From IMG/VR virus record IMGVR_UViG_3300027708_000298, positions 1-23,914 of that record: a stretch of 23,914 nucleotides of DNA, one strand, 5' to 3'. Shown here piece after piece: positions 89 through 836 of the stretch (within the stretch, counting starts at the first letter, position 1; the number at the start of each line of letters is the position of its first letter). Source of the stretch: a virus. The translations under genes were made by a program, and so were the position numbers. The notes under the pieces were generated by a model. It was not told where the DNA came from. It saw only the letters and a list, made by a program, of their open reading frames with translations, and ran no database searches.

Positions 89-836
89 TTTCATTAAAGA
101 CACTTCATTTTTGACGAATGAAGAAGTTGGAATTTATCTTAAGTTGTTGTGGATTTACTACGACACCGAACAGGCATTGCCCAATTCTTTGTTTGAACTT
201 TCAATGAAGGTCAACGCCCGTGACCAACAAGAGGTTTTGAGTGGCATTTTGGATATGTTTTTTACTTTAGAAAACAACGAATGGCATCACAGACGTTGCG
301 ACAAAGAAATTGATCATTACCACTTGCAAATTGAAACCGCATCTAAGGCAGGAAAAGCATCGGCACTTAAACGAGCGTTGAACAAAGAATCAACGGTCGT
401 TGAACAGGCGTTAAACGGGCGTTCAACAGACGTTCAACCAACCAATAACCATGAACCAATAACCAATAACCATATTAAAGAATCTAAAGATTCTTTGTCG
501 GCAGGGTTGCCGACTTGCCCCCATCAGGACATTCTGAATCTTTACAAAAAGCATTTGCCACAGCTTGCCCAGCCAAGGGTTTGGGATGGGGTCAGGCAGA
601 CCAACCTACGGCAAAGATGGTTGCAAGCCGCAAAACCGTCTGTATTCAGCCCACAGGGGTATGCAAGCCAAGCCGATGGGTTGGCATGGTGGGATTCTTT
701 TTTTGCCTACATTGCAAACGACACCAAGCTGGCGCAGGGGTTTGAAACCAAGGACAGGACATGGCGACCTGATCTGGTGTGGATAGTGAACGCAACCAAT
801 TTCGCCAAGATAATTGATGGAAAGTACCAAAAATGA
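60..836 (+). CDS. DUF1376 (YdaU-type) replication protein
   Basis: Residues 1-98 match the DUF1376/YdaU family, seen in an N-terminal pattern of YYQHHIGDF, FLTNEE and a WIYYDTE helix. Residues 100-150 are a low-complexity linker. Residues 155-258 resemble the C-terminal domain shared by phage replication proteins (NLYKKHLP near 160, then RQRW, and a final NFAKIIDGKY). DUF1376 proteins in prophages usually sit beside helicase-loader genes, so a role as origin-binding initiator or replisome organiser is inferred. I chose ATG 60 because GGAG lies 7 nt upstream and the conserved domain starts there. TTG 45 is the alternative, and the frame is open to the left edge. The DNA of the linker carries phased repeats and hairpins listed separately. 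The stop overlaps the next start (ATGA). Confidence 0.8.
   Translation: MHYYQHHIGDFIKDTSFLTNEEVGIYLKLLWIYYDTEQALPNSLFELSMKVNARDQQEVLSGILDMFFTLENNEWHHRRCDKEIDHYHLQIETASKAGKASALKRALNKESTVVEQALNGRSTDVQPTNNHEPITNNHIKESKDSLSAGLPTCPHQDILNLYKKHLPQLAQPRVWDGVRQTNLRQRWLQAAKPSVFSPQGYASQADGLAWWDSFFAYIANDTKLAQGFETKDRTWRPDLVWIVNATNFAKIIDGKYQK
365..441. repeat. Seven phased 11-bp repeats (putative replication iterons)
   Basis: Units begin at 365, 376, 387, 398, 409, 420 and 431, each exactly 11 bp after the last. The consensus is CGTTNAACRGN. AAC stands at unit positions 6-8 in all seven, and GTTNAAC is intact in the units at 376, 398, 409, 420 and 431. The units at 365 and 387 are degenerate. The core is a dyad, so one symmetric site occurs per helical turn. 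The units fall in all three codon phases of the host gene, so the period is a DNA-level feature. Phased repeats inside an initiator gene are typical of lambdoid origins. The assignment as iterons is inference. Confidence 0.7.
442..476. repeat. AT-rich direct repeats next to the iterons (candidate unwinding element)
   Basis: The 11-mer CCAATAACCAT occurs at 442-452 and again at 463-473, with a partial copy (CCAATAACC) at 456-464. The stretch has a low G+C content and lies directly between the phased repeats and two hairpins. An AT-rich tract beside iterons is the usual place where an origin melts; that role is inferred. It encodes a Thr/Asn/His-rich linker, so protein-level low complexity may explain part of the repetition. 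Confidence 0.5.
477..496. repeat. Perfect hairpin, 8-bp stem, 4-nt loop
   Basis: AAAGAATC at 477-484 is the exact reverse complement of GATTCTTT at 489-496, with TAAA as the loop. It lies inside the linker of the DUF1376 gene immediately after the AT-rich repeats. A coding-region terminator is unlikely because the gene continues. A role in origin function, such as priming or single-strand initiation, is inferred from position only. Confidence 0.55.
497..514. repeat. Perfect hairpin, 7-bp stem, 4-nt loop
   Basis: GTCGGCA at 497-503 pairs exactly with TGCCGAC at 508-514 around a GGGT loop. It abuts the previous hairpin without a single intervening base. The two together close the repeat region inside the DUF1376 gene. 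Confidence 0.55.

Follow-up and report, generated by a model that had tools for sequence, protein, structure and literature searches.

The window, by which is meant the whole 23,914-nucleotide stretch of viral DNA analysed here (IMG/VR record IMGVR_UViG_3300027708_000298), carries near its left end a gene for a DUF1376 protein, and within that gene lie seven 11-bp repeats, an A/T-rich tract of 7-bp units and two hairpins, all described on the plus strand. The gene spans positions 60–836 and encodes 258 amino acids from the ATG at 60; a TTG at 45 is an alternative start, and homologues beginning with MHYY support the ATG. The DUF1376 family (PF07120) is matched well above its curated Pfam cut-off (E = 2.7e-21; 76.2 bits vs. 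30.1) over residues 7–90 of the 263-residue open reading frame. This is the sole Pfam match of the protein, with none to the Phage_rep_O N-domain or to the iteron plasmid Rep and RepA_N families.

The protein is built of distinct parts. Its N-terminal domain (63–314; Pfam residues 2–85 and AlphaFold2) is winged-helix-like, with four helices and a beta wing, and is modeled with pLDDT above 90. A long helix (residues 78–107 of the model) ends in a basic arm, ASKAGKASALKRA (339–377), which is delimited by that helix and by the association with the repeats described below. There follow a linker that is disordered in the AlphaFold2 model and a helical C-terminal domain (522–833), recognized from PHROG similarity, from the model, and from the exchange of N- and C-terminal modules between relatives. 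This exchangeable domain resembles PHROG 5810 (E = 1.5e-13) and PHROG 345, annotated as "replication initiation O-like" (E = 8.4e-10), and is likely the part that recruits the replisome. No sequence relative of the protein was found in the PDB, where a Foldseek search returned nothing at E ≤ 0.001 and only weak winged-helix matches, to MarR and DnaD-N.

Eleven-base-pair iterons within the coding sequence

The seven iterons (365–441; type A, core CGTTNAAC) start at 365, 376, 387, 398, 409, 420, and 431, the units at 365 and 387 being degenerate. In order, they match the 11-nt consensus at 7, 7, 7, 9, 10, 9, and 8 positions, and exact GTTNAAC occurs five times, at 377, 399, 410, 421, and 432. 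The DNA that encodes the basic arm partly overlaps the start of the array. A sequence-only reading of the window had reported seven units exactly 11 bp apart and had argued that their period is not made by the protein, as they fall in all three codon phases; both statements are borne out, the phases running 2, 1, 0, 2, 1, 0, 2. Measured against 20,000 synonymous-codon versions of the linker protein stretch, the lag-11 identity is 0.60 where 0.375 ± 0.053 is expected (p = 5e-5), and the five GTTNAAC motifs compare with a mean of 0.74 and a maximum of 4. Nowhere else in the window does lag-11 identity score as high as at the array (0.63; runner-up 0.41), which is also detected by Tandem Repeats Finder (367–438 at period 22 and 390–438 at period 11).

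Repeats of this kind could in principle reflect nothing more than a low-complexity protein linker without any role for the DNA, with periods arising from codon use or replication slippage. The disordered linker does repeat at the protein level, with an 11-residue repeat (ALNKESTVVEQ / ALNGRSTDVQP) followed by a 7-residue one. However, an 11-residue repeat equals three times 11 bp and is thus insufficient alone to produce an 11-bp DNA period; the 11- and 7-residue protein repeats are the 11- and 7-bp DNA repeats read in three frames. A protein-level origin is further at odds with units that occupy every codon phase, with an excess over synonymous shuffles that is seen in relatives at lags 11 and 7 but not at other lags, with unrelated repeat sequences that retain the 11-bp spacing, and with genes of a second family, Lin1244, that keep 11 bp yet carry a 5-bp tract (see below). 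We regard it as scarcely tenable.

The A/T-rich tract and the hairpins

Next to the iterons lie five 7-bp AACCANN units (440–474), namely AACCAAT at 440, AACCATG at 447, AACCAAT at 454 and 461, and AACCATA at 468. The earlier reading had placed A/T-rich 11-mers here; A/T-rich repeats are indeed present, and it is the unit that needs correction. The GC content of positions 440–475 is 31%, compared with 44% for the whole gene, and the tract, conserved in DUF1376 genes, is likely the unwinding element.

Two perfect hairpins, also recognized in that reading, follow at 477–496 (AAAGAATC-TAAA-GATTCTTT) and 497–514 (GTCGGCA-GGGT-TGCCGAC). As single-stranded DNA, the 477–514 segment folds with −13.3 kcal/mol (z = −7.6 vs. 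dinucleotide shuffles). The stems covary among relatives that share the C-domain of the window, appearing as GAATC/GATTC, GAAGC/GCTTC, GATGC/GCATC, GAACC/GGTTC, and GAAGG/CCTTC. Across 18 distinct sequences, 94.2% of 207 hairpin cells are paired, as opposed to 33–50% when slid, and there are 35 double changes instead of 3–7.

Lying in transcribed coding DNA, the hairpins could fold as RNA too, and it is conceivable, if doubtful, that they are attenuators or translational control elements unrelated to an origin. One-sided G.U or G.T changes are absent from the 207 cells, so the hairpins fit folded DNA better than RNA. Furthermore, relatives with other types of C-domain often have different hairpins directly 3′ of the 7-mers, which also speaks against an RNA role unrelated to the origin: among 26 scorable bacterial genes from a set fetched by N-terminal peptide (see below), a hairpin follows the 7-mers in 50%, whereas control windows have one in 22%. 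In several betaproteobacterial prophage genes (loci L344, L335, and L326), the strong hairpin CCCCCGCAAGCGGGGG, unlike those of the window, stands directly 3′ of the 7-mers.

Recurrence among DUF1376 genes

Relatives were drawn from viral contigs, GenBank phages, and bacterial genomes. As the larger set of 126 DUF1376 genes was partly chosen for repeats, the fair set is one of 30 non-redundant genes from bacterial genomes, which were fetched by N-terminal peptide alone and are therefore free of selection for repeats. Their record titles name beta- and gammaproteobacteria, an alphaproteobacterial metagenome-assembled genome (MAG), a Chlorobiaceae MAG, and others, although MAG assignment is perhaps imperfect. 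Relative to synonymous shuffles at p < 0.01, lag 7 is elevated in 60% of the 30 genes, lag 14 in 40%, lag 11 in 33%, and lag 22 in 20%, and every other lag in 0–10%; at p < 0.05 lag 11 reaches 57%, so that about 43% of the genes fall short of significance at this lag, which counts against the reading as an origin. The 11-bp period is thus conserved in homologous genes beyond protein constraint, as the earlier reading had proposed should be checked, including in genes not chosen for repeats.

A blind scan of 2.9 million IMG/VR viral contigs for AACCANN repeated five times, a pattern with 25 fixed bases, provides a second line of evidence. Among the matches listed, 202 of 210 stretches fall in a same-strand open reading frame with a DUF1376 domain, and several of the remainder are open reading frames cut at contig ends; 58 of the stretches sit in loci already fetched as homologues. 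On the evidence of sequence comparison, many phages and prophages have this layout of iterons and 7-mers in their DUF1376 genes. Moraxella phage Mcat25 (L091:3342–3490) has exactly one 11-bp iteron fewer than Mcat21 (L084:4080–4240); the difference shifts the frame, and the gene stands as two open reading frames in the Mcat25 record.

The iteron class follows the basic arm

The 11-bp spacing is unchanged among relatives, whose iterons fall into at least seven sequence classes, each with its own arm: class A (GTTNAAC) with AGKASAxxR, class B (CCAGTCGGTT-like) with NGxxGGRPKK, class C (GCGAACGCAAT) with SAxxRW, class D (CACGAANCGTG-like) with NKRIAxERE, class E (CCCCCCTAATG) with GKRGAAKRW, class F (GGGTACATGAT) with FGxFIRD, and class G (AAATCAGATCN) with ANxIRW. 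Two singletons, L114:4082–4873 (CATACCGACGGTAT) and L350:478–1287 (GTCACGCGTGAC), have other arms and other apparent repeats and possibly represent further classes.

What the iteron class tracks is this arm of about 20 residues after the winged helix, and neither the winged-helix domain nor the C-domain. In an unsupervised test on the 126 genes, with arm DNA and repeat DNA kept non-overlapping, repeat similarity had a partial rank correlation of 0.486 with the arm (Mantel p = 0.003, the lowest value that 300 permutations allow), −0.03 with the N-domain, and −0.006 with the C-domain. In a separate comparison, repeats are shared by pairs of genes similar in the N-domain and different in the C-domain (repeat similarity 0.17) but not by those similar in the C-domain and different in the N-domain (0.049; background 0.058). 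Regular expressions for the arm classes agree with the iteron class in 117/125 and 114/124 cases. These expressions overlap (AGKRGAAKRW fits both A and E) and were drawn up after the data had been viewed, so weight is placed on the unsupervised test and on a prospective scan.

That scan, made with type C iteron DNA once the code had been drawn up, returned 119 loci, and arm C is present in 84 of 85 DUF1376 genes and in all 32 genes of the Lin1244_N family (116/117 together). Type A iterons are accompanied by arm A in 62/66 DUF1376 and 27/28 Lin1244_N genes, and three of the four DUF1376 exceptions carry AGKRSFSVRS or AGQRSFSVRS, close to A. By-eye classing finds class C arms in only 3 of the 30 bacterial genes.

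A second family with the same arm and repeat pairs

Phage genes of the Lin1244_N family (PF14297) contain type A or type C 11-bp iterons together with the matching arm classes. Like DUF1376 proteins, their products are modeled by AlphaFold2 with a winged-helix-like domain, a long helix bearing the arm, and a disordered linker, and the iterons lie just downstream. The two are nonetheless separate Pfam families, related only weakly by hhalign (E = 4e-5, probability 70%) over a region that includes the arm. Unlike in DUF1376 genes, the A/T-rich tract consists of AAAGN 5-mers and not AACCANN 7-mers (L210, L212, L240, L267, and L393–L472). Among 13 non-redundant Lin1244_N genes fetched by N-domain peptide, lag 5 is found in 85%, lag 11 in 69%, and lag 7 in none.

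Given that the arm adjoins the iterons, linkage alone could hold the pair together, and linkage does contribute to the association. The two might accordingly be co-inherited as a recombination cassette while specificity resides in the winged-helix core; they lie within about 130 bp, and modules are exchanged around them. Such an account, which we consider improbable without dismissing it, does not explain why genes with similar N-domains (>0.7) and different arms have unrelated repeats, their repeat similarity being 0.024 compared with 0.366 where the arms are similar too. Nor does it readily accommodate the same arm and repeat pairs in two families, for which linkage would have to outlast a very old divergence. 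Without amounting to proof, and from comparative data alone, the recurrence in two families and the pairs with similar N-domains and different arms argue for recognition of the iterons by the arm.

We accordingly lean, with some reserve, toward a view of the arm and its one-turn iterons, within about 130 bp, as an exchangeable cassette of origin specificity that would pass jointly from one winged-helix initiator family to another, at least two being involved, and from one helicase-recruiting C-domain to another, with a readable recognition code and with an unwinding tract that is family-specific (7-mers in DUF1376, 5-mers in Lin1244).

A probable replication origin inside its initiator gene

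Positions 365–514 are, with high probability, a phage replication origin embedded in the gene that encodes its initiator. The origin interpretation put forward in the sequence-only reading is supported to this extent; there are no data on binding, melting, or origin activity, all of which remain inferred. It is possible, though very unlikely, that the repeats are instead in-gene operators through which the DUF1376 protein only autoregulates transcription, with replication starting elsewhere. Binding sites alone would account for the 11-bp period and for the correlation with the arm, and plasmid iterons often serve in autoregulation. Operators would, however, leave unexplained the A/T-rich 7-mers that are always downstream, the covarying hairpins, the replication-initiation C-domain, and the helicase and loader neighbours of some relatives.

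In the origin interpretation, DUF1376 proteins would bind next to one another along the array, in which each iteron lies one helical turn from the next, and the basic arm, alongside the helix, would contact the iterons and confer sequence specificity. The initiator may then open the 7-mer tract and probably hold one of its strands, in the manner of lambda O and plasmid Rep proteins, and the C-domain would recruit a helicase or primosome, presumably that of the host here and a phage-encoded one in other phages. The role envisaged for the hairpins is that of folded single-stranded DNA, used for instance in priming or primosome assembly.

The gene neighbourhood bears on the recruitment step. A replicative helicase or YdaV is encoded directly downstream in some other DUF1376 phages, and a Walker-A open reading frame follows 11 of the 30 prophage DUF1376 genes. 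No match to DnaB_C or IstB/DnaC was found in the record of the window or in 12 relatives, records that are possibly incomplete, and the phage may therefore use the helicase and loader of its host.

GC skew, named in the earlier reading as a check, gave an equivocal answer. The detrended minimum does lie within 1.25 kb of the site in 9 of 13 genomes, but it is confounded by gene direction. When this is controlled for, using third-position skew in same-direction genes, a clear rightward rise remains only in AB_SZL4 and P19250A. As the minimum stems mostly from a switch in gene direction just left of the gene, skew is left uncounted.

Relation to known origins

Lambda O offers the closest parallel in layout, as the earlier reading had noted for lambda and P22: the origin lies in the middle of the initiator gene, iterons precede an A/T-rich tract, and both are situated between a DNA-binding winged helix and an O-like, partner-recruiting part. 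The O protein of lambda and Stx phages binds single-stranded DNA of the A/T-rich region (PMC7466680). The analogy does not extend to the protein family, the N-domain here being DUF1376. Also unlike lambda O, the iterons are 11 bp long and contiguous and fall in many classes tied to the arm, the adjacent tract is made of 7-mers, and no loader gene comparable to that of the O/P module was found with the initiator of the window.

Plasmid iterons usually lie outside the initiator gene and are longer than 11 bp. RepE/TrfA and RepA_N systems share with the window a winged-helix initiator and direct repeats beside an A/T-rich DNA unwinding element (DUE), without any sequence match between its protein and those families. 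Plasmid Rep proteins bind single-stranded DNA of the DUE (PMC4081077), and RepA_N occurs in a phage satellite (PMC7145576).

The Rac prophage carries an active origin, oriJ (PMC3945230). Its ydaU gene in Escherichia coli K-12 (L595:3620–4477) belongs to the DUF1376 family. The arm of its product, AGKASVQARR, is of type A, and the gene contains GTTNAA repeats, degenerate and at intervals of about 11 bp, that are weak and were judged by eye without statistics. That oriJ and these repeats are the same thing is our inference.

No earlier description of in-gene iterons for DUF1376, YdaU, oriJ, or Lin1244 was found in the open-licence literature. New here are the iteron classes, at least seven in number and linked to the arm, and the same arm and repeat pairs in Lin1244_N. 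Both families are named only as unknown, although phages and prophages from several phyla commonly carry them. If the interpretation is correct, they are initiators of in-gene origins that can be located from sequence alone; because the basic arm changes together with the repeats that it probably reads, it may be possible to read the origins of a great many phages. The arm and iteron pairs would then constitute a natural experiment on the evolution and exchange of initiator specificity, would predict the sharing of origin sites among co-infecting phages or prophages, and might be a source of small orthogonal replication origins.

Farther downstream of the initiator gene, the window encodes an HNH endonuclease-like open reading frame (2635–2991; PHROG 131, E = 2.1e-24), and a DNA methyltransferase gene (1858–2553) sits between the two.
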